A DNA stretch of 25,168 nucleotides from a virus, in the IMG/VR virus record IMGVR_UViG_3300046004_000811, positions 1-25,168 of that record. One strand, given 5' to 3'. Position numbers and translations under genes: made by a program. The notes under the pieces are model-generated. The model ran no database searches, had not been told where the DNA came from, and was given only the letters and a program-made list of their open reading frames with translations. Shown one piece after another: positions 3,094-23,265 of this stretch (the first letter of the stretch is position 1; every line of letters begins with the position of its first letter).

Positions 3094-3636
3094 ATGATTG
3101 AACCTACACCGTTGCCGTCGCATGAGATTTTACACAGTAGGCTGCATTATAATTCAGAAACAGGTGATTTAATTTGGAAAGACCGAGATGTTAGTTCGTG
3201 CAAACGAGAACAAGATGCTAGATGTTGGAATAAGAAGTATTCAGGCACTATCGCAGGTGTTGATAATCACGGACATTTACGATTACAGATTGATGGAATT
3301 AAGTATTTCAATCACAGAATAGTGTGGAAAATGGTCACTGGTAAAGACCCTGAATTTGAAATAGACCATATAAATTTAGACAGAAAAGACAACCGATTTG
3401 CTAATTTACGAGATACCGATTCAAGTCAAAATGCTAGAAATAAACAAACGAGCTGTAGAAACACAAGTGGTTTTAAAGGGGTTGATTTTAAGAAGAACAG
3501 TGGTAAATGGCGAGCTAGAATTAGAGTTAATGGTGTTCAGACTTGTTTAGGTATTTTTAATACCGCAGAAGAAGCAGCGCAAGCCTATATAAACGCTGTT
3601 GAACCATATCATGGTGAATTTGGTAGGATTAAGTGA
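3094..3636 (+). CDS. HNH/AP2 homing-type endonuclease, single module
   Basis: A 180-residue free-standing endonuclease of the HNH/AP2 group. HNH nucleases nick or cut DNA at one metal-bound active site, and the AP2 domain gives site binding. Visible parts: a leader LPSHEILHSRLHYNSETG (7-24) shared with the other AP2 nucleases in this window, an NHRIVWKM helix with the first His at 74, DHINLDRKDNRFANLR (91-106) with His92 and the Asn pair, and an AP2 domain at ~124-175 (SGFKGVDF, KWRARI, LGIFNTAEEAAQAY). It starts at an ATG with TAGGAG 9 bp upstream. It is the only plus-strand gene, wedged between tail tube and chaperone, with its own promoter and a shared terminator. This is how a recently inserted selfish gene would look. 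Confidence 0.88.
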   Translation: MIEPTPLPSHEILHSRLHYNSETGDLIWKDRDVSSCKREQDARCWNKKYSGTIAGVDNHGHLRLQIDGIKYFNHRIVWKMVTGKDPEFEIDHINLDRKDNRFANLRDTDSSQNARNKQTSCRNTSGFKGVDFKKNSGKWRARIRVNGVQTCLGIFNTAEEAAQAYINAVEPYHGEFGRIK

Positions 3637-11703: not shown

Positions 11704-12726
11704 TTACGCTTGGCGAGTAATCAAACGAGCAATTTTAATTTGCTTACGTTCTGCGAATACTCGTTTCCAGCTAGAAGCTGTCGCTAAAGTTGCATTCGAT
11801 GGACCGCCTTTTGTAGCAGTACCAACATAAGCAACACCGCTTGGAGCAATACACCATTCCCAACGTGAGAATAATTCTTCGCTACCACCACCGTTACCGC
11901 TGCGTGGGTCACGATATACTTCAGTTGGTGTTTTTGGATTACCGAAACCTAAACGCACTGCACCGTCACCAAAAATCCATGACTCAGCAACTTTGGTTGA
12001 AGTGTTGTACGGCATTTCGTCATCGACGATTACCCGCATATCTTGGAAGAACGGCATTTGCAATGTACCTGTAGAATCAGGAACAAAGTCAATTAAGTCG
12101 TTTTTACGCATACCTGCGAATACGATACTGTGTACGAAAAGTGTTTTCAATGAAGTGAAGCTATCTCCCATTGTAAACGCTGCGTCAATAAACGATTCGG
12201 TTGTGAAGTCTGTAATACCTTTTGAAAAACTCGAACCTGAAACATCCCATGTCATATCGTTAGCAACGTGTTCTGACGCATCTGGAGCAGCCGCGTTGTC
12301 AGCAAATACACCTTTCACAGTATTCACAAATGCAGATTGCAACATGCTTGCACGATAATCCGCTACGCGACTAGCAATAGCCATCAATGGGTCTTCACCT
12401 GCCAAATCACCTGCTAAATCCGCTGCACCCCAAGATTGGTTACGCGACAAACGTACTTGAATCTCAGTTGCGCTGCCAATTTTACCTGCTGACGCAACAG
12501 TATCTTGGTCATCAGACACACGGTCAGCGGTACGCGCAAGGTCTTTGAATGAAGGAATGTTAGTCGTGATGCCACCACCACCTAAGAATTGGTCTAACAA
12601 AGGGTCGCGAACTACCGCGCCTGATTTGATAAGATTTGATTTTTGTTCTGTTAATTGTTGAACGTATGGTGTAAAATGACTAGGTACTACGATGTCGGAA
12701 ATGATTGTACTTGATAAATCTGCCAT
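11704..12726 (-). CDS. Major capsid protein
   Basis: A 340-residue protein that forms the phage head shell. Evidence is the overall pattern of HK97-fold capsid proteins of the gp13-like/P22-like type: an N-terminal helical arm (ISDIVVPSHFTPYVQQLTEQKS), ITTNIPSFKDL, then QVRLSRNQSWGAADLAGDLAGEDPLMAIASRVADY with a W at the ring strand, a long spine helix region, LKTLFVHSIVFAGMRKNDLIDFVPDS, DMRVIVDDEMPYN, and a C-terminal strand set near GVAYVG and RWEWCIAPSGV. The phrase 'MRVIVDDxMP' is a hallmark. GAGGCT precedes the ATG. It has its own promoter and a ~134-nt hairpin-forming leader. Confidence 0.9.
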   Translation of the reverse strand: MADLSSTIISDIVVPSHFTPYVQQLTEQKSNLIKSGAVVRDPLLDQFLGGGGITTNIPSFKDLARTADRVSDDQDTVASAGKIGSATEIQVRLSRNQSWGAADLAGDLAGEDPLMAIASRVADYRASMLQSAFVNTVKGVFADNAAAPDASEHVANDMTWDVSGSSFSKGITDFTTESFIDAAFTMGDSFTSLKTLFVHSIVFAGMRKNDLIDFVPDSTGTLQMPFFQDMRVIVDDEMPYNTSTKVAESWIFGDGAVRLGFGNPKTPTEVYRDPRSGNGGGSEELFSRWEWCIAPSGVAYVGTATKGGPSNATLATASSWKRVFAERKQIKIARLITRQA

Positions 12727-12866: not shown

Positions 12867-12895
12867 AGCGTAGCATAGATGGGTTGATTTGTCAA
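12867..12895 (-). promoter_or_regulatory. Sigma70-type promoter for the capsid operon, with repeats
   Basis: CTTGACAA with -35 at 12890-12895, a 17-bp spacer ending in TGC (extended -10) and TACGCT at 12867-12872. An inverted repeat CCATCTATG / CATAGATGG (12845-12853, 12874-12882) has one arm in the spacer and one just after the expected start point. A broken direct repeat, GGTAGC then GCATAG, occurs at 12832-12844 and 12864-12878. Both fit an operator. Confidence 0.65.
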
Positions 12896-13117: not shown

Positions 13118-13600
13118 TTACTGTGATATTAGCTTAGGATTATACCTGATATAACCTTCTTGTTGTAAACCTTTACTTCTAAGTATTCTCAAAATTGCGT
13201 TTGTTGTAAAACCATGACCCTTTCGAGCCTTATACCCTAAACTTTCCAATTTTCTCTTAATAGTCTCCGAACCACAATGTAAGGAAACTTTTAATTCGCA
13301 TATTTTATTGATTACCTCTTGTTCGTCTGGATTATCAATAAGTGTTTTACCACCATCTACCCGCATTTTCCCGTAGGGAACTTGTCCGCCAGATAACTTT
13401 CCTTCTTTCCTTAATTCTTCCCTCTTAATAGCTCCTAATTTTATTAGCGAATTATCAACGTTGTGTATTTTTTCATGGCAATCTATACATAGGGTTATCA
13501 TATTAGACACCCTATTACTACCTCCGCGCGATTTTGGTACGAGATGGTGATGTTGTAAGTTTTCAGTAAGTCCACAAGCTACACAATACTTATGTTTCAT
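13118..13600 (-). CDS. HNH endonuclease fused to a serine-recombinase-type DNA-binding region
   Basis: A 160-residue two-part protein. Residues 1-50 are a compact zinc-binding HNH nuclease: CVAC (6-9), HHHLVPKSRGGSNRVSNM (17-34) and CIDCHEKIH (38-46). Residues ~64-145 match the 'Recombinase' linker domain that follows the catalytic part of large serine recombinases: KLSGGQVPYGKM, LIDNPDEQEVINKI, a G-S-x-x-x-I helix, LGYKARKGHGFTTNAILRIL. In recombinases this region binds the attachment site after GxxPYGY and wraps with W/F..x..I..IL. No serine recombinase catalytic domain is present. I infer a homing-type nuclease that borrowed a recombinase DNA reader. ATG at 13600; GAGAAA is a weak ribosome binding site. 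It follows a second, unrelated HNH gene. Confidence 0.78.
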   Translation of the reverse strand: MKHKYCVACGLTENLQHHHLVPKSRGGSNRVSNMITLCIDCHEKIHNVDNSLIKLGAIKREELRKEGKLSGGQVPYGKMRVDGGKTLIDNPDEQEVINKICELKVSLHCGSETIKRKLESLGYKARKGHGFTTNAILRILRSKGLQQEGYIRYNPKLISQ

Positions 13601-13671: not shown

Positions 13672-14103
13672 TTAAACAAAATCTGGAAATAATTTCTGAG
13701 ATGCAGCAACTCTTTCCAAATGAGTTTTAACGTCGCAAGTTTTTAAATTTAACATTGCGTATAAGTTTGCCCCAGACAAAATGAATCTTTGATATACAAC
13801 GTCCATAAAACTTCTTTCATAAAACCACTCCCAATAAGAATCTCCATAGAAATACTCAGACGCTTTATGGCAATAACTACACAAACAATGTAGATTACTA
13901 ACATCGTTACTACCGCCTTTGCACAGTGGTTGAATATGCGCCCTTTCTAGCTTGTGACCATAATCCATTCCGCAAGCGAAGCATACATTCATATCTAAAA
14001 ATTCACATTTACTATCAAAACCTTTAGCTACAATATCTAAATTATTCTGCCAGTAATTCCTAATCACACTCTCTGATGGCATATCAGCTCTATTATTACT
14101 CAT
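13672..14103 (-). CDS. HNH endonuclease, zinc-binding type
   Basis: A 143-residue HNH nuclease. The metal-binding CFAC (41-44) is followed by HIQPLCKGGSNDVSNLHCLCSYCHK (56-80), giving the catalytic His, the GGSNDVSNL loop with its Asn, and the second CxxCH. N-terminal 40 residues (ESVIRNYWQNNLDIVAKGFDSKCEFLD) and C-terminal ~60 residues (WEWFYERSFMDVVYQRF) are specific extensions with no family I can name. The ATG at 14103 has CTGGAG upstream. It shares a unit with the KilA-N gene. It may be a selfish nuclease or contribute to DNA handling; no packaging-type link to the terminase is evident. Confidence 0.85.
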   Translation of the reverse strand: MSNNRADMPSESVIRNYWQNNLDIVAKGFDSKCEFLDMNVCFACGMDYGHKLERAHIQPLCKGGSNDVSNLHCLCSYCHKASEYFYGDSYWEWFYERSFMDVVYQRFILSGANLYAMLNLKTCDVKTHLERVAASQKLFPDFV

Positions 14104-14160: not shown

Positions 14161-14937
14161 TTATTTCAAATTAGGAATAGCGTCAACTACATCTTGGTAC
14201 CAACGTAGTTGTTTTACTGGTGTTCTGCCGTTAGCTTTGTCAACGTCTACCATTTCTGAATAAGGTTTACCTTTCTCAGTAGCTTCCCATTTACCTAAGA
14301 CGCTTTCTTGAAAGCCGTGCGTTTGCAATAACAAATTAAACGCGCGTGCTTTGATGCCTAAAGGTTCACCTAATTGTGTCACAGTGAATGTTTGTTTAGG
14401 TACATCACAAGTTAGCATTTTAATGTCCATGATAGCCATTGGAGATTCACCTAAGCGTCGAGTAATCGCCTTATCAGCAGACAATAATGCTTGATTGCCA
14501 GATAAGCCAAACAAATTTGCTAATTTAATAGCAGCTTCTGTTTCATTAACGATAACTGATAAGTCAGATTTTTTGATGATGATAGATTCACCTTTCAATA
14601 GAGAGTCGATTTGCATATCACACCAAACAGCAAAATCTGGATTTAACCATCTTGCAAATACAATTGCTAATTTTGGATGTAACCAAGTACCTTGTTCATC
14701 AATAACACCACCTTTTCTAACAAGTACCAAATCGGATTCTGTCGATGGGATAATACGCCCATCGGAATTTAAATGCTTAGTCAATGCGGTGATATATTCT
14801 TTTGATGAATCGGTTTTAAGAAAATCTTTTGGGACTTTACCAAACGCTTTAGCAATTTGCGTAGCATTGATATAAGCATCGTCAGATTGAAAGATTACTG
14901 GAATTTCGTTGTATTGGAGTGTTACTAATTTTGTCAT
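14161..14937 (-). CDS. KilA-N domain protein (antirepressor-like)
   Basis: A 258-residue protein with a KilA-N domain. The start MTKLV at 14937 is chosen because AAGGAATC lies just before it; an upstream ATG in frame lacks a site and sits in the leader. Residues 21-40 (AYINATQIAKAFGKVPKDFL) and 80-110 (DEQGTWLHPKLAIVFARWLNPDFAVWC) are the diagnostic KilA-N motifs. The C-terminal half has a helix-turn-helix-like region with TVTQLGEPLGIKARAFNLLLQTHGF, ending RWYQDVVDAI, as in phage antirepressors. KilA-N proteins bind DNA and regulate phage or host genes. Here it stands inside the head module with its own promoter, so it is probably an accessory gene. Target unknown. Confidence 0.88.
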   Translation of the reverse strand: MTKLVTLQYNEIPVIFQSDDAYINATQIAKAFGKVPKDFLKTDSSKEYITALTKHLNSDGRIIPSTESDLVLVRKGGVIDEQGTWLHPKLAIVFARWLNPDFAVWCDMQIDSLLKGESIIIKKSDLSVIVNETEAAIKLANLFGLSGNQALLSADKAITRRLGESPMAIMDIKMLTCDVPKQTFTVTQLGEPLGIKARAFNLLLQTHGFQESVLGKWEATEKGKPYSEMVDVDKANGRTPVKQLRWYQDVVDAIPNLK

Positions 14938-14954
14938 TTTGATTCCTTTATGGA

Positions 14955-14992
14955 GGCGGCTCTCAGAGCGTTGAAATATAAACGCAACCGCC
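14955..14992 (-). promoter_or_regulatory. Leader hairpin before the KilA-N gene
   Basis: The minus-strand RNA reads GGCGG, TT, GCGTT, loop, AACGC, then 8 nt and CCGCC. Two 5-bp stems with a bulge form a GC-rich hairpin just upstream of the ribosome binding site. A role in translation control is possible. Confidence 0.45.
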
Positions 14993-15044
14993 AAAACATA
15001 AGGTTTTTGATATTTCTATTCAGTGCTGAGACACTATGTTGATA

Positions 15045-15072: not shown

Positions 15073-15116
15073 GCTCTAAATAGTGTACTACAGTTTTAAA
15101 TCCATTGCAAATAAAA

Positions 15117-15146
15117 ACCTCCTACCACGAATCCGCAATAGGAGGT
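15117..15146 (-). terminator. Intrinsic terminator after the Tad2-like gene
   Basis: An 8-bp stem ACCTCCTA / TAGGAGGT with a 14-nt loop and TTTTATTT after it on the minus strand. It ends the scaffold/Tad2 unit. Confidence 0.88.
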
Positions 15147-15171
15147 CTCAACTTTTGGAGAAAGTTATTTG

Positions 15172-15549
15172 CTATTCGATGATTTGCCAGTCTTCTGATA
15201 AACAATCATTAACGCTAGGTACCCAAGTGCTAACCGTGTCATCAACGTTTTTAATCGCCATATAAGCGTTGTATGGTACCAAACTGTCTTCACCGAAGAA
15301 ACTTTTTGCTACATCGGTACGAGCTGGATATTGGTTTGCTGGTACAAGATAAACAAACATCCCTTTTCCATTCCAGCCAGCCCGCGCAACTTTTTTACCT
15401 TGCTTTAAGGCTTCAATTGCAAGCCCAAATGATAAATCTTGTTTTTGTAATCGAGTTAAATCGCTTAACAACGAATATACAAATTTAATTTCAACATCTT
15501 CATCATTCAATACTGCTTCAGCGACATCTTTTACATTTTCCATAATCAT
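15172..15549 (-). CDS. tad2: Tad2-like anti-Thoeris protein (DUF2829)
   Basis: A 125-residue protein of the DUF2829/Tad2 family. The signature is complete: SFGLAIEALKQGKKVARAGW (40-59), NGKGMFVYLV (60-69), PYNAYMAIK (92-100) and the C-terminal WVPSVNDCLSEDWQII (109-124). Tad2 proteins are small oligomeric sponges that bind the cyclic ADP-ribose signal made by Thoeris ThsB, so the NADase or other effector ThsA is not activated. The first ~38 residues are an N-terminal extension, EDVE-rich, of unknown use. The start at 15549 is favoured because its ATGA overlaps the scaffold stop and GCAGG sits upstream; MENV at 15543 is an alternative. It is co-transcribed with the scaffold gene and followed by a strong terminator. 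Family assignment is firm; ligand specificity is inferred. Confidence 0.85.
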   Translation of the reverse strand: MIMENVKDVAEAVLNDEDVEIKFVYSLLSDLTRLQKQDLSFGLAIEALKQGKKVARAGWNGKGMFVYLVPANQYPARTDVAKSFFGEDSLVPYNAYMAIKNVDDTVSTWVPSVNDCLSEDWQIIE

Positions 15550-16355
15550 TTACCTGCCGCTTGTTGCATACGTTCAGCCAATGCTGGGTTTTCTTTAATC
15601 ATTCGTGCTTGCGCTGTCACGTTGAAAGAAGCTCCTGCTTTGAATGGATTAGTTCCACCAGCAACAAAACCTGAGCCAGTTGCGCCACCACCTTGATGCG
15701 TACCAAACCAATGTGGGTAACGCGCTTGACATTCAGAAATCCATAAATCAGGATTTAAATAACCTGGTACACCGCGTAAACCGTCTTTAGTAACAGGATT
15801 TTGATTATCGTCCACTTCAAATTCGCGTTCAGCTACTAAATGAATATGCTCATGAAACTCAACTGGGATTTTGTGTTTAGTAATCGCTGATTGTACATTA
15901 TCGGTAATGATACGCGCACGGCGTTCTTGTTCAAACTGTTGTAGTTTAGTTGTTGCAGTTGAGTATTCAGCTTCTAACAATTGCAACTTAGCTTCTAATG
16001 GTCTTGTCACAGACTTAACCTTAGCGTCAGCTACGGAAGCTACCGCTTGGTCAAATTTACCATCGTCTAATTTAGCTTCTTTAGCCGCTTTTAGTTCTTC
16101 AACTAAGGATAATTGTTCCATAATCGCAGCAGGTTCTAAATTGATTTCTTTATAGGCTGATAACTCAGCTTTCGCAGCAGCTAAGTCACTTCGTTCTTTA
16201 CGCAAAGCCTCGCTAATTTTAGCGATGTCTTCAGATGTTTTTAAACCTTTTACGGCAGTTAGCTTGAATACTTCACCCTCTTGAGTGTATAATTCGTGTA
16301 AGTAGTCAGGGATAGCATCTAAGGTTGTTTCGATAGGATTTAATTCAATACTCAT
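15546..16355 (-). CDS. Capsid scaffolding protein
   Basis: A 269-residue protein between portal and capsid genes, where scaffolds lie. It is highly charged and helical, with a long coiled coil at ~50-175 (AKISEALRKERSDLAAAKAEL, EAKLQLLEAEYSTATTKLQQFEQERRA), and ends in a Gly-rich hinge (GGGATGSGFVAGGTNPF) followed by a short helix with ARMIKENPALAERMQQAAG, as in scaffolds whose C-terminus contacts the capsid subunit. The start at 16355 (MSIELN) is chosen because an upstream in-frame ATG at 16409 falls next to the -10 box and ahead of the transcription start. No protease domain is visible, so the scaffold is likely removed or processed without help from this protein. Confidence 0.8.
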   Translation of the reverse strand: MSIELNPIETTLDAIPDYLHELYTQEGEVFKLTAVKGLKTSEDIAKISEALRKERSDLAAAKAELSAYKEINLEPAAIMEQLSLVEELKAAKEAKLDDGKFDQAVASVADAKVKSVTRPLEAKLQLLEAEYSTATTKLQQFEQERRARIITDNVQSAITKHKIPVEFHEHIHLVAEREFEVDDNQNPVTKDGLRGVPGYLNPDLWISECQARYPHWFGTHQGGGATGSGFVAGGTNPFKAGASFNVTAQARMIKENPALAERMQQAAGK

Positions 16356-16399
16356 AGTTAGTTTTTTATTCGGTTGGTTAAAGGAATTATTCAATAATG

Positions 16400-16428
16400 A
16401 TACTAGCATACATTATAGCTATTGTCAA
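16400..16428 (-). promoter_or_regulatory. Sigma70-type promoter for scaffold and Tad2 genes
   Basis: CTTGACAA with -35 at 16423-16428, a 17-bp spacer ending in TGC (extended -10) and TAGTAT at 16400-16405. It decides the scaffold start: any ATG upstream of about 16393 is not transcribed. Confidence 0.8.
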
Positions 16429-16464: not shown

Positions 16465-18024
16465 TTAGGTAGACTTAACGCCTAATTTCAAAGTACGTTT
16501 GACATCTGGTACAGGTTTAGCTTCACCCATGATACCACCGTCTGCGTTTGTCACATTAGCCTTGGCAACAACTTCCCCGTCAGTAACATCACTATTAGAT
16601 TCAGCCTTCATAGCAGCCTCAGCAGCCAACTTAGCTTCACGTTCTTTCTTAGCCGCTTTAGATTCTTCAGCATAACTTCTCGTAGTTAGTTTCTGCGTGC
16701 GTAAAATATCGTGTACAGATTCTTCTTGCAAAGGCAATCCCATCGAAATTGCTTGCATCAATTGTACAAAATCTTGCCCGTGCATGGTAGTATTCACGAA
16801 GTCTAAGTTTGGAGTCACACTTACTAAATCGGGGTCACATTTCATCCACACAGCACACAATTTTAAGATTTTTTCTAAACCGTAAGATGCTGTAATGGCT
16901 AATTGCGTCATATTAGCCGTTTGAGCGACCATGCGTAAGCGTAACGCATCGCCAGATTCTTGTGTTGATTTTGAATTCAACATTTGTCCAGCTTTAGCTT
17001 GCGCTGAGCTACGGTCATTCTCAAGCGATTGACGCATTTCAGACAGTCCTGATGATGACACACCAATGAACTTAGCATCTCCTCCGACGTGAATGTCGAT
17101 TTTACTACCCGCTCCTACGCGAGTATCTTCGTCAGGGTTGTTGTTACCTCCAATTACAACTAGCGTTTCTTGCCCTTGCATATACAACGTGTGACGATAA
17201 TCAGCTTCAGCACGGTAGATTGATAAACAAGCACGAGCTAATCCTAATAATGGTGGTACATCAGGGACTGATAAAATGTCTTTTGTATTGATAAACACAA
17301 ACGGAATTTCTTGCAACGGAGTGCTGTACATCATCGGAATGACGATTTCTGAATCGTCTAATGATTGTGACTCAGAAACTGCTTGACGATAATACGAACC
17401 TGAGTTTTCATCTTCTAAGTTAAGAGTATTGCCTAATACTAAAATGCGATATTTATTTTGATAATACCATGTGAAGTCTGATGAACGATAATAATTCGAT
17501 TCGTCTAGTACAACTAGATTGAGTGCGTTTTTACCAGCAATCGTATCGCCATCATCCCAATTGATAATGTTTTCAGCATGATACATGGCTAGGTACGGCA
17601 TAGGCTTACCGACAGTAGCATTACTATCAATATCTAAAAGCAAGCCTACGCGCCCAGCAACAAGCTGTTGTGCATGAATTCGACGTAGTAAATTGTCTAA
17701 CGAATCACCCGTAATCGTTGCGTTCTCACGCATGAATTCCATTTCTGGTGGCAATGTGATTGCAGTGGGTTTGTTGTGCAATAAGCCGATATACGATTCC
17801 ACAGCGGTATTCACATAATCTGGATAAACAGCACGAGTTTTATATGATTGATAGTTAGCGTAGCCAACGTCATTAGAATTCATACCGTCTAATAATTGAC
17901 CGCCTGTTGGTGGTAGGTAGGCTACACCTTTGCGCTTAATTGCATCTTCACCTTTATAACTGTCGCGTAGTAACTGCCAGTCTGCAATTTGTTCTGTGTA
18001 AAGCGGGTGTACGGAGTTTATCAT
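16465..18024 (-). CDS. Portal protein (DUF4055-like)
   Basis: A 519-residue protein, the usual size for a portal, the dodecamer through which the terminase pumps DNA into the head. The N-terminal part has WQLLRDSYKGEDAIKRKGVAYLPP (17-40), then YKTRAVYPDYVNTAVESYIGLLHNKP (61-86), matching DUF4055-type phage portals. The middle contains LLRRIHAQQLVAGRVGLLLDID, ending with strand-rich crown domain segments, followed by helices LRMVAQTANMTQLAITASYGLEKILKLCAVW. The C-terminus is a charged Ala/Lys/Glu tail. AAGGGT sits 6 bases before the ATG. It is preceded by its own promoter and a ~185-nt leader. Confidence 0.85.
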   Translation of the reverse strand: MINSVHPLYTEQIADWQLLRDSYKGEDAIKRKGVAYLPPTGGQLLDGMNSNDVGYANYQSYKTRAVYPDYVNTAVESYIGLLHNKPTAITLPPEMEFMRENATITGDSLDNLLRRIHAQQLVAGRVGLLLDIDSNATVGKPMPYLAMYHAENIINWDDGDTIAGKNALNLVVLDESNYYRSSDFTWYYQNKYRILVLGNTLNLEDENSGSYYRQAVSESQSLDDSEIVIPMMYSTPLQEIPFVFINTKDILSVPDVPPLLGLARACLSIYRAEADYRHTLYMQGQETLVVIGGNNNPDEDTRVGAGSKIDIHVGGDAKFIGVSSSGLSEMRQSLENDRSSAQAKAGQMLNSKSTQESGDALRLRMVAQTANMTQLAITASYGLEKILKLCAVWMKCDPDLVSVTPNLDFVNTTMHGQDFVQLMQAISMGLPLQEESVHDILRTQKLTTRSYAEESKAAKKEREAKLAAEAAMKAESNSDVTDGEVVAKANVTNADGGIMGEAKPVPDVKRTLKLGVKST

Positions 18025-18477: not shown

Positions 18478-20457
18478 TTATGACAAACCTACCGTTTTAC
18501 CAGAACGTGCGCCTGTGGCGGTGGAGAGGATTAGGTAGCGAATTTCATCTGCTGCGTGGTCATTTGAGTTGGTATCTAAATCATCAGGGTTTTTAGGACA
18601 TCTTGGTAATGATGGGAAAATTTCTATAAAATGTCTACAGTTGCTAAAAACAAACAGCCCTGCATATTCTCTAACTCCACCTAACGGCTTAACTGCGTTT
18701 GCTAAATGTCGCCTAATAGCTTCCCAGCCAGCAACCCTAGAACCAGATGCTTTATCTGACCTAGTCCATGTTATACCTGGAACAACTTTGTTATCGTCCA
18801 ATCGAATAGGTTTCATCATAGACGCGGCAATACTATTACCGTTGTCCATTGTCCAAATAGCATTATCTGCTGCACCAGGAACAACCCTGTGGTAAATACC
18901 CATTTCAATTTCACGTTCAACGATACCTTTTGCAATATCAGCAGCAAGCATTTTTAAACCGACATTATATTTACCTTCTTCACATCCTAACCATTCTGCT
19001 ATTCTGAAAATATCACCGCGCACAGTGCTTATCACTCTACCGTCATGTAATTCAACATCACTACCATCAGAAATAGCGTGCCACCCAACAGAGAATGGTT
19101 TGCTACTACCATAATCAAAATTTCTAGTAATTTTCCATGATGACGGGATTGAAAAAGGTTTTACCACATGGGCATCATATTGCCATAAATCATCAAACAT
19201 TCCACCTTCAGAATACCCATCCCAATCACCTAATAACCAAGCTCTGCGTTTAAAAGGGTCTGTGATAGCGTGAAGATCAGCCACATATTGCGGGTCGAGT
19301 TTTGAATTTTCTCGCCAAGATGAAAATATCCAACATTGCGTCTTAGTGATAATTTCATCTTTTTGGGTTCTTGGATTAAAAACTTTAATTTCAGTTTTTA
19401 AAATTTCACCAGGAGCAGACTTGTCAATGAAGCGGGACTTAACCCAATTTCGCCCGATCCCAGATGGATTTGTACTCGGCATGATAATGAGCGGTAATTG
19501 AGGCAATAAGCTACCGTCTGGTAGCGGATGGTCTTCGGGTACAAAACTACTTCGATTAAGACTCATTACAGCGTCAAATACGTCAGGTGTGGCGTGCTTT
19601 GTTAATTCGTTAGGTGAGATGAAGCAGTTTTTAGAAATTAGCCGAGTAGTAGGATTGATATAACAATTAACATCTTCCACCGTAATGTCAATTGTAGGAT
19701 GTATTCCACAGGGTAGAACCTGAATATAACCGTAATCAAATTTAAAGTCTGTGTGTACAGCATCCGATGTTTTATAAGGGTGTAAAAACCAATCGTTTCC
19801 AATAGTATCACTTATTAACGCAACTGTTTGTTTGTTTTTAGCCTTCTGAAAACCCCTGCTTCTATAAGTTAGAAGTTTGTGGTCGGTAGATTGAATTTGA
19901 TGCCCAATTATATTATTTTGCTTATCGAATACATAAATTGCGTTACATTCTTTTTCTTGTGTGGGAAAAATCTTAGTTATAGCCTTATATCCAACAGGTG
20001 TTAAAATTTTATCACCTAAAACGACATTTTGTATTTCAATTAAACCTTTATTTTCAATATCTACTAGACTATGACAAGCTACACAGAATTCACTACCATG
20101 TAGCTTATTGTAATCATCCATATTACTAATAGCTCTAAATAAAATTTCTTCTCCTCCAGGGAACTGCCATTTTAAATCGCCTTTCGAGCTGAGGAATTTT
20201 GCACCATCTTTAAATTGTGGAAAATATCGTTTAGATTTACTTATCAAATCCTCTAATGATGATGTTTGAGTATCGTAAAATAAGGCACGGAAATATCTTC
20301 CGTAGCCAATTCCAATAAATTTTCTTGCCGCCATCAGAGTAACGTCACTTTTACCTGACCCCCTGGAACCAGCCAAAAGCGTAATGTTAGCTGGGCAATT
20401 CATGGCGAGAGTTTGCGACCCTGGTTGGGGACTCCATACAATAGGTCTATTATCCAT
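18478..20457 (-). CDS. terL: Terminase large subunit with an in-frame mini-intein
   Basis: The DNA-packaging motor, 659 residues including a 153-residue intein (exteins 506, normal for the family). Walker A is GSRGSGKS at 30-37. KLHGSEF (118-124) would join CFISPNELT (278-286) after splicing, rebuilding the usual HGxEFxFIxxxEL segment with the probable Walker B carboxylate. A coupling motif STNPSGIGRNWVKSRF follows at ~328. The nuclease domain has NFDYGSSKPFSVGW (Asp448), an Asp at 507 and the NDHAADEIRYL end motif (Asp633, Asp637), which cuts concatemers at the end of filling. The ATG at 20457 overlaps the upstream nuclease gene's stop; a TTG at 20475 is an alternative start. Loss of splicing would abolish packaging, so the intein is presumably active. 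Confidence 0.92.
   Translation of the reverse strand: MDNRPIVWSPQPGSQTLAMNCPANITLLAGSRGSGKSDVTLMAARKFIGIGYGRYFRALFYDTQTSSLEDLISKSKRYFPQFKDGAKFLSSKGDLKWQFPGGEEILFRAISNMDDYNKLHGSEFCVACHSLVDIENKGLIEIQNVVLGDKILTPVGYKAITKIFPTQEKECNAIYVFDKQNNIIGHQIQSTDHKLLTYRSRGFQKAKNKQTVALISDTIGNDWFLHPYKTSDAVHTDFKFDYGYIQVLPCGIHPTIDITVEDVNCYINPTTRLISKNCFISPNELTKHATPDVFDAVMSLNRSSFVPEDHPLPDGSLLPQLPLIIMPSTNPSGIGRNWVKSRFIDKSAPGEILKTEIKVFNPRTQKDEIITKTQCWIFSSWRENSKLDPQYVADLHAITDPFKRRAWLLGDWDGYSEGGMFDDLWQYDAHVVKPFSIPSSWKITRNFDYGSSKPFSVGWHAISDGSDVELHDGRVISTVRGDIFRIAEWLGCEEGKYNVGLKMLAADIAKGIVEREIEMGIYHRVVPGAADNAIWTMDNGNSIAASMMKPIRLDDNKVVPGITWTRSDKASGSRVAGWEAIRRHLANAVKPLGGVREYAGLFVFSNCRHFIEIFPSLPRCPKNPDDLDTNSNDHAADEIRYLILSTATGARSGKTVGLS
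19627..20085 (-). other. Mini-intein within the terminase (residues 125-277)
   Basis: A 153-residue Hint-type insertion. Block A starts at the first Cys: CVACHSLVDIENKGLIEIQN then VVLGDKILTPVG. Block B is QSTDHKLLTY with the His. Block F is TIDITVEDVNCYI, and block G is LISKN followed by Cys as the first C-extein residue. All splice motifs are present, but the usual penultimate His is Lys. There is no homing endonuclease domain between blocks B and F. Boundaries were set by the joined extein GSEF + CFISPNEL, which restores the terminase motif exactly. Confidence 0.9.
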
Positions 20458-21535
20458 GATTAGCGTATTCACCAAAGTATTCGTTAGCGGCTTTACAATA
20501 GGCTTCGTGAGCTTCTTGTTCTGTTTTATATTGACCTAAACATTTACGTTTTCCATTTATAACTATACCAGCTCTCCACTTACCACGTTGTTTGTCAAAA
20601 GAGCAACCTTTTAATTTATCGGAATTGTTTTTACTATTCATTCCATTTTGACTTACACTTACCAATCTTAAATTACACCAACGATTATCATGGCGTACTC
20701 CGTTCATGTGGTCAACTTTTAAATGTAAAGGTATCTCCTCGCCCGTATGTAGCCAATAGATAACTCTCTGTAACACTTTTATTTTTCCTGAAACAGTGAC
20801 GTATAAATAACCGTCTTCTTTTTTAAATATTATTTCATTACCAGCGTATCTAGTATTCCATCTACGCATAATACCCACATCCTTAAAATGACTAATCGGA
20901 CGTTCTTTCCACTTAACAATTCCAGTTTCAGGGTTATAGTCGAAACATTCGTTTATGTTTTCAGATGTTAATTCAAATTCTGATTTTTTAACAATCTTAG
21001 TTTCTAAATGTGACCAATCTTTAGTTTCTGCTTCTTTACGGGCTTTTATTGCGTCTTCTTTGTTTTTAAATGTGCCTAGATAAACTCCGTTTCCTCTTAT
21101 GTTAAACATCGATTGCCAAGCGTCAGAATCTTTAACATACGAAACTCCTTTACAACCAGATTTATTATCACTTGGTATTTTTCTATTGTGTTGATTTTCA
21201 CTTTCAGTAACATCGCGCAAATTACTAAATTTATTATCAAACCCATCTCCATTTATGTGGTCAATCTGTCCAATAGGGTCTTCACCAGTCATTAGTTTCC
21301 ATATAACGCGATGTGTTGCAGTGGTAATTTCCCCTATAGTTGTTCTATAGTATTTACCGTTGGCTTGTTTAGCTGCCGATAAACCTTTTAACCGATTATT
21401 CCAAGTATCTGTATAAGACTGATTTTTAAAATGCTCTAATGGTCGCTCCTTCCATAGCAATTCACCTGTTTCTGGAAAGTATGAAAAACATTCATTAAGA
21501 TACTGTTGTGAAGGTAGTTGTTTTGGTTTTGTCAT
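20450..21535 (-). CDS. Double HNH/AP2 homing-type endonuclease overlapping the terminase
   Basis: A 361-residue protein made of two tandem copies of an HNH/AP2 module. Each copy has a leader of the type ECFxYxPETGxxxWKERP, an HNH core and an AP2 DNA-binding domain. Copy 1: His75 (HRVIWKLMTG), QIDHINGDGFDNKFSNLR at ~91-108, AP2 ~126-170. Copy 2: Gln256 replaces the first His (QRVIYWL), then VDHMNGVRHDNRWCNLR and AP2 ~307-351; its catalysis may be weak. The start at 21535 (MTKPKQLPS) has AGAGGTC upstream; an earlier ATG has none. Its stop codon overlaps the terminase start. Next to an endonuclease-free intein in that very gene, it is a candidate partner that drives the intein's spread. Confidence 0.85.
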   Translation of the reverse strand: MTKPKQLPSQQYLNECFSYFPETGELLWKERPLEHFKNQSYTDTWNNRLKGLSAAKQANGKYYRTTIGEITTATHRVIWKLMTGEDPIGQIDHINGDGFDNKFSNLRDVTESENQHNRKIPSDNKSGCKGVSYVKDSDAWQSMFNIRGNGVYLGTFKNKEDAIKARKEAETKDWSHLETKIVKKSEFELTSENINECFDYNPETGIVKWKERPISHFKDVGIMRRWNTRYAGNEIIFKKEDGYLYVTVSGKIKVLQRVIYWLHTGEEIPLHLKVDHMNGVRHDNRWCNLRLVSVSQNGMNSKNNSDKLKGCSFDKQRGKWRAGIVINGKRKCLGQYKTEQEAHEAYCKAANEYFGEYANHG

Positions 21536-21590
21536 GTTAGACCTCTGAGTTAGATATTTTTGAGTCATTAAAAGTTAATGATGGAACGCA

Positions 21591-22242: not shown

Positions 22243-23265
22243 TTATTTTCTAGCATATTCACCATGATAGAGTTCTTCGGCTGCTTTACGGGCGGAGATG
22301 GCTTCTTCCTTGGTGGAGAATGTGCCTAATCTAATTCGGTTTTTATTTACCGTTATTCTAGCTAACCAATTATCGTTCCTTTTAATATAATCAACTCCTC
22401 TTAATTCATTTGTACTTTTTACATTGTATCCATTCTCAACCCTAGTCACCAATCTTAAATTCTCATAACGATTATCAGATGGGTTGTTATTTATATGGTC
22501 AATTATATCACCTTTTAAAGGTTCTTCACCTGAATTAAACCAGTAAATCAATCGGTGTACTTGAAACGCCTTATTATTTATCTGACATGTTATATATTTG
22601 TCAGGACGCATTGTACCTACTTTTTTACCACTGTTTATTTTAAATAAATGTCCATTTTCATAATAATAATTTGATTTTAAATATTCGAATGTCATCACGA
22701 AAATAGAATTATTTTTTGATTTAGCTTCGGCGTAAACATCTTTATTATTTTGCAACCATTCCTCTCTAAGACAAATAGCTTCTTCTTTTGAATTACATTC
22801 ACCAGATGTTTTATTTCTGTTAATTGCCGCAGAATACTGCCATTTCTTTCTGTTAGTATCATATCGAATACCTTTAATACCACTCTTATTATTGGATTGA
22901 TTTTTCTTATTCATCATATTTTCAGAATGTGTAACATCTCTTAGATTTTCGATACAATTATTTGATTTATCATTATCAATATGGTCAATACTACCAATAG
23001 GTTCATTACCTGTCATCATTTTCCAAATCAGTCGATGTGAAAGGTATCTAGTATTGAGAACATATATTCGGGTATATCCGCTAATATGAATAGTACCAGC
23101 TACATTGCCAGCAGTTGTGCCATTGAAAATATTCATCCCAGTTGCATTTTTAAAATGATGAATAGGTCTTTCTTTCCATATTAAAATACCTGTTTCAGCA
23201 TCATAATCGAAACATTCTTTTAAATATTCTTGGGATGGTAGTAGTTTTGGTTTTTGGCTTGACAT
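22243..23265 (-). CDS. Double HNH/AP2 homing-type endonuclease
   Basis: A 340-residue protein with the same two-module plan as the nuclease at 20450-21535. Copy 1: leader LPSQEYLKECFDYDAETG, His77 (HRLIWKMMTG), SIDHIDNDKSNNCIENLR (92-109), AP2 ~126-175. Copy 2: a shortened leader, His237 (HRLIYWF), IIDHINNNPSDNRYENLR (254-271), AP2 ~286-335 (LRGVDYI, WLARI, RLGTFSTKEEAISARKAAE). Both HNH cores keep the key His and Asn residues, so both may be active. AAAAGGAATC lies before the ATG. It sits between a phosphoesterase and a small acidic gene with its own promoter, which suits a mobile insert. Its natural target site cannot be read from the window. Confidence 0.85.
   Translation of the reverse strand: MSSQKPKLLPSQEYLKECFDYDAETGILIWKERPIHHFKNATGMNIFNGTTAGNVAGTIHISGYTRIYVLNTRYLSHRLIWKMMTGNEPIGSIDHIDNDKSNNCIENLRDVTHSENMMNKKNQSNNKSGIKGIRYDTNRKKWQYSAAINRNKTSGECNSKEEAICLREEWLQNNKDVYAEAKSKNNSIFVMTFEYLKSNYYYENGHLFKINSGKKVGTMRPDKYITCQINNKAFQVHRLIYWFNSGEEPLKGDIIDHINNNPSDNRYENLRLVTRVENGYNVKSTNELRGVDYIKRNDNWLARITVNKNRIRLGTFSTKEEAISARKAAEELYHGEYARK

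Follow-up and report, generated by a model that had tools for sequence, protein, structure and literature searches.

The tad2 gene and its neighbours

The window, meaning here the whole stretch of DNA analysed, comprises 25,168 nt (positions 1 to 25,168 of the IMG/VR record IMGVR_UViG_3300046004_000811). A tad2-like gene is found on its minus strand among genes for head proteins, the order in the sense of transcription being portal, scaffold, tad2, KilA-N, two HNH genes, and major capsid. The features of this region are the following:

16465-18024, minus strand: portal gene (PHROG 145, E 2.4e-105)
16400-16428, minus strand: candidate extended -10 promoter ahead of scaffold (pattern match)
15546-16409, minus strand: head scaffolding protein gene (PHROG 206, E 2.9e-31), the start being probably 16352 as judged from the starts of relatives
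15546-15549, minus strand: ATGA stop-start overlap of scaffold (stop) and tad2 (start, 15549)
15172-15549, minus strand: tad2-like gene, 125 aa (ORF call and PF11195)
15439-15549, minus strand: N-terminal extension, residues 1-37 (two helices predicted with low confidence; 28% G+C)
15175-15438, minus strand: Tad2 domain, residues 38-125 (PF11195, ModTad2 alignment, and model pLDDT)
15114-15149, minus strand: terminator-like hairpin 3' of tad2 (folding; absent from the consensus terminator scan)
14161-14994, minus strand: KilA-N domain gene, between tad2 and capsid (Pfam search)
13672-14103, minus strand: HNH endonuclease gene, likewise between tad2 and capsid (Pfam search)
13118-13600, minus strand: second HNH endonuclease gene between tad2 and capsid (Pfam search)
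12867-12895, minus strand: candidate extended -10 promoter ahead of capsid (pattern match; leader aligned with those of L082 and L006)
11704-12726, minus strand: major capsid protein gene (PHROG 247 major head protein, E 4.1e-97)

An earlier note, made from the sequence alone, had located the gene correctly at 15172-15549, and it is read on the minus strand (15549 to 15172), the plus strand frame over these positions being interrupted by stops. The placement with scaffold claimed there agrees with the PHROG 206 match of the preceding gene, and the ATGA overlap by which the two genes were said to be coupled is real (scaffold ORF 15546-16409, tad2 start 15549), the junction ATGATNATG recurring in L082, the closest relative phage found. 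A second in-frame ATG (M3) stands directly after M1, so that the start of tad2 may be either of the two. Regarding the terminator that the note had attributed to tad2 itself, the stretch 15155-15106 (minus strand) folds at -23.9 kcal/mol (z -6.4, equalled in none of 200 shuffles) and has a T-rich 3' flank, which bears out the hairpin although it is not among the sites of a consensus terminator scan of the window. A TAACTTTCTCC element just past the tad2 stop and ahead of the hairpin is common to the window, L082, and L006, a more distant relative. The Tad2 domain is subject to purifying selection, with a dN of 0.12 and a dS of 0.87 (dN/dS about 0.14) between the window and L006; in the comparisons with five other relatives, synonymous sites have reached saturation.

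Three further HNH/AP2 homing-endonuclease-like genes can be found in the window, at 3094-3636 on the plus strand and at 20450-21568 and 22243-23265 on the minus strand. The large terminase ORF (18478-20475) harbors an insertion of about 155 residues (19620-20088, minus strand) with no match in Pfam or NCBIfam, which terminase matches skip in L085-L088 and run through in L082 and L091; it looks like an intein without endonuclease. Rfam and tRNA searches gave no match. With regard to the host, a seven-member portal alignment compared with genome contigs matched 58 stretches, none of which was confirmed as a relative, and consequently no Thoeris system can be placed in the host.

Family, fold and putative ligand

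The window gene encodes a clear Tad2-family protein: PF11195 matches residues 40-124 with 88.5 bits (cut-off 25, E 4e-25) over profile positions 2-73 of 73, while an NCBIfam search gave no match. ModTad2 is the solved structure closest to it in sequence (111 bits vs 62.7 for SPO1 Tad2 and 60 for AcrIIA7). An AlphaFold2 monomer model has a mean pLDDT of 82.6 and a pTM of 0.63, with pLDDT values by blocks of 84-96 from residue 41 and of 59-69 in the extension. Foldseek matches this model best to 9eib, i.e., ModTad2 with hisADPR (E 3.8e-12, 57% identity). Comparison of a predicted structure with Tad2, proposed in the earlier note as a check on membership, thus comes out in favor of the family, since Tad2 entries rank on top in VIA-align (Z 10.8-12.1; ModTad2 12.1 and 11.9, SPO1 Tad2 11.7) and the best non-Tad2 chain reaches 5.8. 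That chain, the neck protein 8qkh_S of phage 812, is a weak fold match (66 aligned residues, 17% identity, Foldseek E 0.74) that may be a clue to how the Tad2 fold arose.

Since the fold scores tie ModTad2 and SPO1 Tad2, the ligand has to be chosen on sequence. An alignment of 44 relatives, themselves found by similarity to the window Tad2, has 20 invariant columns, of which 19 are present in ModTad2 and 12 in SPO1 Tad2 (counted by eye), and the integrity of the ligand pocket is assessed at the sequence level only. MoTad2 is a His-ADPR binder that blocks type II Thoeris, whereas SPO1 Tad2 binds gcADPR and blocks type I (PMC13299392, as excerpted); Tad2 is arranged as a homotetramer with two ligand pockets (PMC12043709, as excerpted). 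As ModTad2, crystallised with His-ADPR, is the closest solved relative, the window protein would more probably bind a signal of type II Thoeris, with His-ADPR as its most likely putative ligand. The earlier note had stated that Tad2 sequesters the Thoeris signal; we infer the same for the window Tad2, which stands nearer to ModTad2 with its hisADPR than to the gcADPR-binding SPO1 protein.

While it is possible that the protein is a sponge for another signal, such as a gcADPR isomer, another cyclic ADP-ribose or a CBASS cyclic dinucleotide, we consider this doubtful. Members of the same fold do bind gcADPR (8smf, 8smg) as well as 1',2'-cADPR and cGG (8kbj, 8kbk, 8wjd), and fold scores fail to separate these ligand types, but the window sequence is clearly nearest to ModTad2. 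Moreover, the mid-domain insert of AcrIIA7/HgmTad2, which the excerpted text of PMC12043709 links to cyclic dinucleotide binding, is missing from the window Tad2 (9kzr carries 16 extra residues there), which speaks against a cyclic dinucleotide in particular. An anti-CRISPR function of the AcrIIA7 type, suggested by the AcrIIA7 entries being Tad2 homologues, is hardly credible, considering that AcrIIA7 ranks no higher than fifth among the sequence matches (60 bits) and that its PDB entries have cADPR and cGG bound.

The N-terminal extension

The extension of about 38 residues that the earlier note had left unexplained is real and comprises about 37 residues; in related phages it is absent or replaced. 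The 35 codons that follow its third codon stay open in 2.5% of composition shuffles, and no PHROG match was obtained at E up to 5. Leaving out the Bacteroides phage match H44, which spans residues 4-124 of the window Tad2, no relative of the extension was found among the matches inspected. Several candidates were rejected, namely L008, L038, and L077, where the matches run across stop codons, L072, where the match is the other N-terminal domain described below, and Ochrobactrum phage ZX86, whose annotated gene starts after the region concerned. An origin as remnant of a related Tad2 N-terminal domain was likewise rejected, the profile score being negative and shuffles scoring as well in 683 of 1000 cases for DNA and in a fraction of 0.73 for protein.

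A separate N-terminal domain, with a start of the form M..YIG.K, is found ahead of Tad2 in 37 different sequences of the loci analysed, e.g., in L003, L004, L082, L084, and L127.

Candidate promoters and timing

A general sigma-70 scan of the window is uninformative, since its sites are no commoner than expected (28 vs 29.3). The pattern TTGACW-N12-16-TGNTANNNT occurs six times in the window, the sites ahead of scaffold and capsid among them, vs 0.34 expected (reached in none of 100 shuffles), and five times in L082, three in L127, and four in L087 vs 0.23 expected; the single match in L006 is at chance level, being reached by 46 of 200 shuffles. This extended -10 class is thus well above chance in the window, L082, L127, and L087, and is apparently reused across the phage group. 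Because the pattern was drawn from capsid leaders, the capsid sites of the window, L082, and L006 together with the window scaffold site are partly circular. It has no match in the capsid leaders of L127 and L087, nor at the place of the candidate scaffold promoter in L006, and in L082 a small ORF and a hairpin-like stretch, as seen by eye, lie between the candidate scaffold promoter and scaffold.

The likeliest transcription unit, as read from these elements, would run from the candidate promoter through scaffold and tad2 to the hairpin. The candidate promoters being host sigma-70-like, expression could be either early or late, which are the two alternatives that had been put forward for a counter-defence gene placed with scaffold. 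In other phages, sponge or signal-cleaving activity is reported to be early (PMC11722364, PMC13232231, both as excerpted).

The gap between scaffold and capsid in related phages

Cultured matches of the window portal, among the best 40 of 1297, are 46-51% identical and include Nipunavirus and Seuratvirus (Queuovirinae); NP1 and VogelGryff, the two such records viewed, have no gene between the one preceding capsid and capsid itself. Portal profile scans of viral contigs yielded 22 related loci and then three more, many of these records being fragments, and PF11195 was found in 3/22 and 1/3 of them, i.e., in 4/25. Seventeen loci (the window and 16 with matches to both the scaffold and the capsid gene) allow the gap to be compared. 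Tad2 is present between scaffold and capsid in four of these, window included, the others being L082, L083 (the contig of L006), and L127; the remaining 13, several of which are near-duplicates, lack it and display a gap of 374-388 nt. No ORF of at least 50 aa was found in the six of these 13 gaps that were inspected. The gap of L082 also carries KilA-N and HNH genes, Tad2 is the sole gene in that of L127, and in L084 Tad2 sits just upstream of portal instead. The scaffold-capsid gap is an optional, allele-swapping slot in this phage group.

Gaps of about 380 nt without long ORFs are found in L085 (7302-7699), L087 (10291-10686), L092 (10405-10785), and L093 (4545-4929), where promoter-like and hairpin-like stretches can be seen by eye; such a gap possibly holds a small RNA or a leader. 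A very small basic ORF (MAKAK...) lies between portal and scaffold in L082 and L006 and is absent there in the window.

Presence throughout the phage group, as for a virion structural protein, is not what is seen for Tad2, missing in 13 of 17 gaps. The location of tad2 in a head operon and the weak match to the phage 812 neck protein could suggest a head or neck part, or an assembly protein, with a Tad2 fold, but this is very improbable given that the gene is absent from most of the group, that ModTad2 is far closer, and that divergent alleles have been swapped in while scaffold and capsid stay conserved.

Exchange of tad2 alleles

The window and L082 are 80% identical in portal, 78% in scaffold, 82% in KilA-N, and 90% in capsid, whereas the C-terminal half of their Tad2, taken as the part that follows a conserved 21-residue block, matches at only 15 of 50 positions (30%) vs 209 of 267 in scaffold (p 7e-11), and the N-terminal parts of the two Tad2 proteins are unrelated. 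Conversely, L006 is only 42% identical to the window in scaffold and 43% in capsid, with 110 of 261 scaffold positions identical vs 49 of 64 (77%) in the C-terminal half of Tad2 (p 7e-7). As the two contrasts run in opposite ways, a uniformly faster or slower gene fails to account for them, and exchange does.

Four of five alleles agree fully over the block of 21 residues, and the fifth retains 19 of these. At the DNA level, the window and L082 align through scaffold to the tad2 start, over 75 bp of this block (88%), and at the end of the gene, and not in between. Identical-codon fractions in the block, compared with a view to a recent exchange through it, are 0.33-0.75, over only 18-20 codons, vs 0.40-0.55 in portal. 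Judging from these alignments, the slot alleles appear to differ chiefly in the half that binds the ligand and in what is added at the N-terminus, and to have been gained, lost, and exchanged.

Tad2 among head genes in other phages

Among 20 annotated Tad2-bearing phage records viewed, Tad2 lies among head genes in four, two of which were chosen for hinting labels. In these two, both from Klebsiella phages, Tad2 comes after capsid (PWKp9B) or between the large terminase gene and a DUF1073 gene, overlapping both (IME346). In Vibrio phage 1F273_PE002 it is found between portal and capsid, beside an endolysin, and in Pseudomonas phage phiAH14a between head morphogenesis and capsid genes. Two adjacent genes of the Vibrio phage record (L115, 2400-3264), located between portal and capsid, are annotated as Thoeris_anti-defense. 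The remaining 16 records have Tad2 near replication, lysis, terminase, or accessory genes. Furthermore, in the unrelated contig L003, the gene that follows a portal-like gene is overlapped by Tad2.

A neighbour tally was also made over 68 deduplicated viral Tad2 loci, using a crude longest-ORF rule that leaves many strands doubtful. Upstream (n=129), portal PHROGs with two to three members each and terminase with two are among the families listed; downstream (n=128, the one dropped being Tad2 itself), these are major head protein with three and one, portal with one, and terminase with one. The families considered are the first 25 of 160 and of 98, and may overlap. Head neighbours are a minority arrangement for Tad2. 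The literature search, which lacked the main Tad2 papers, returned no report of Tad2 at a scaffold/capsid placement.

It is an even question whether the position has any functional meaning, as the gap could be a tolerated insertion hotspot with Tad2 as one passenger among mobile cargo. The KilA-N and HNH genes that occupy the gap in the window and in L082, the 13 of 17 loci without Tad2 in the gap, and the 16 of 20 records with Tad2 outside the head genes are all in line with this; the L127 gap holding Tad2 alone and the recurrence of a placement among head genes in unrelated phages speak against it.

Proposed function

Our preferred reading, to which we assign a probability of about 0.72, is that the gene encodes a Tad2-family sponge, most likely for His-ADPR and hence putatively directed at Thoeris, as part of a probable scaffold-tad2 unit in an allele-swapping slot. 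Such a sponge would bind and retain the alarm signal, an ADP-ribose derivative that the TIR-domain defence Thoeris produces, and would thereby keep the killing effector switched off. Being the second gene of the presumed unit, with translation coupled to the scaffold stop and a terminator closing it, tad2 should be made whenever scaffold is. The gap would act as an optional slot where Tad2 alleles can be gained, lost, and exchanged, with a putative benefit to the phage.

It can further be hypothesized that the slot is a counter-immunity site, in which sponge and capsid trigger rise together and the ligand halves are swapped to follow host signals. Roberts et al. (PMC12578639, as excerpted) report that the major head protein sets off Thoeris systems of staphylococci and streptococci, and that this protein itself is needed rather than the procapsid or capsid; since some Thoeris sensors respond to this protein, a sponge carried on the head-protein transcript would then make sense. 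We regard this as unlikely. The systems in the excerpted text of PMC12578639 are gcADPR systems, whereas the window Tad2 is nearest to a His-ADPR sponge, and no trigger of type II Thoeris was found in the literature searched, as far as the excerpted sources go. Also against capsid coupling are the early sponge or signal-cleaving activity reported elsewhere (PMC11722364, PMC13232231, as excerpted) and the KilA-N/HNH cargo in the slot. Co-expression of sponge and trigger accounts for the position no better than a neutral insertion hotspot does.

If the placement among head genes were selected, expression of a counter-defence would be tied to the very phage product that triggers the defence, giving a testable rule for finding sponges against capsid-sensing immunity. 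In addition, as several natural alleles of Tad2 share this one position, they would lend themselves to studying the residues that tell His-ADPR from other signals.

Comparison with known Tad2 proteins

In phiAH14a, IME346, PWKp9B, and 1F273_PE002, Tad2 likewise lies between or beside terminase, portal, and capsid genes, but at other head positions, in other phage groups, and with 34-49% identity to the window Tad2. The L082 protein shares the slot, the scaffold junction, and the identical 21-residue block; it differs by its ligand half (30% identity) and by an N-terminal domain of about 75 residues, matching PHROG 872/9467, where the window protein has its extension. AcrIIA7/HgmTad2 and SptTad2 (8kbi-8kbm, 8wjc, 8wjd, 9kzr) have the Tad2 fold in common (Z about 11), but with their own mid-domain insert (16 residues in 9kzr). 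SPO1 Tad2 (gp34.65; 8sme, 8smf, 8smg), solved with gcADPR isomers, resembles the window protein in fold (Z 11.7) and in the R.GWNG and WVPS...L..DW blocks, while having only 12 of the 20 invariant columns. ModTad2/MoTad2 from a Myroides odoratus prophage (9eib with hisADPR, 8v3e apo) is 88-89 aa long, without N-terminal extension and two residues shorter after FGE, and aligns with the window Tad2 over the whole domain at 57% identity.
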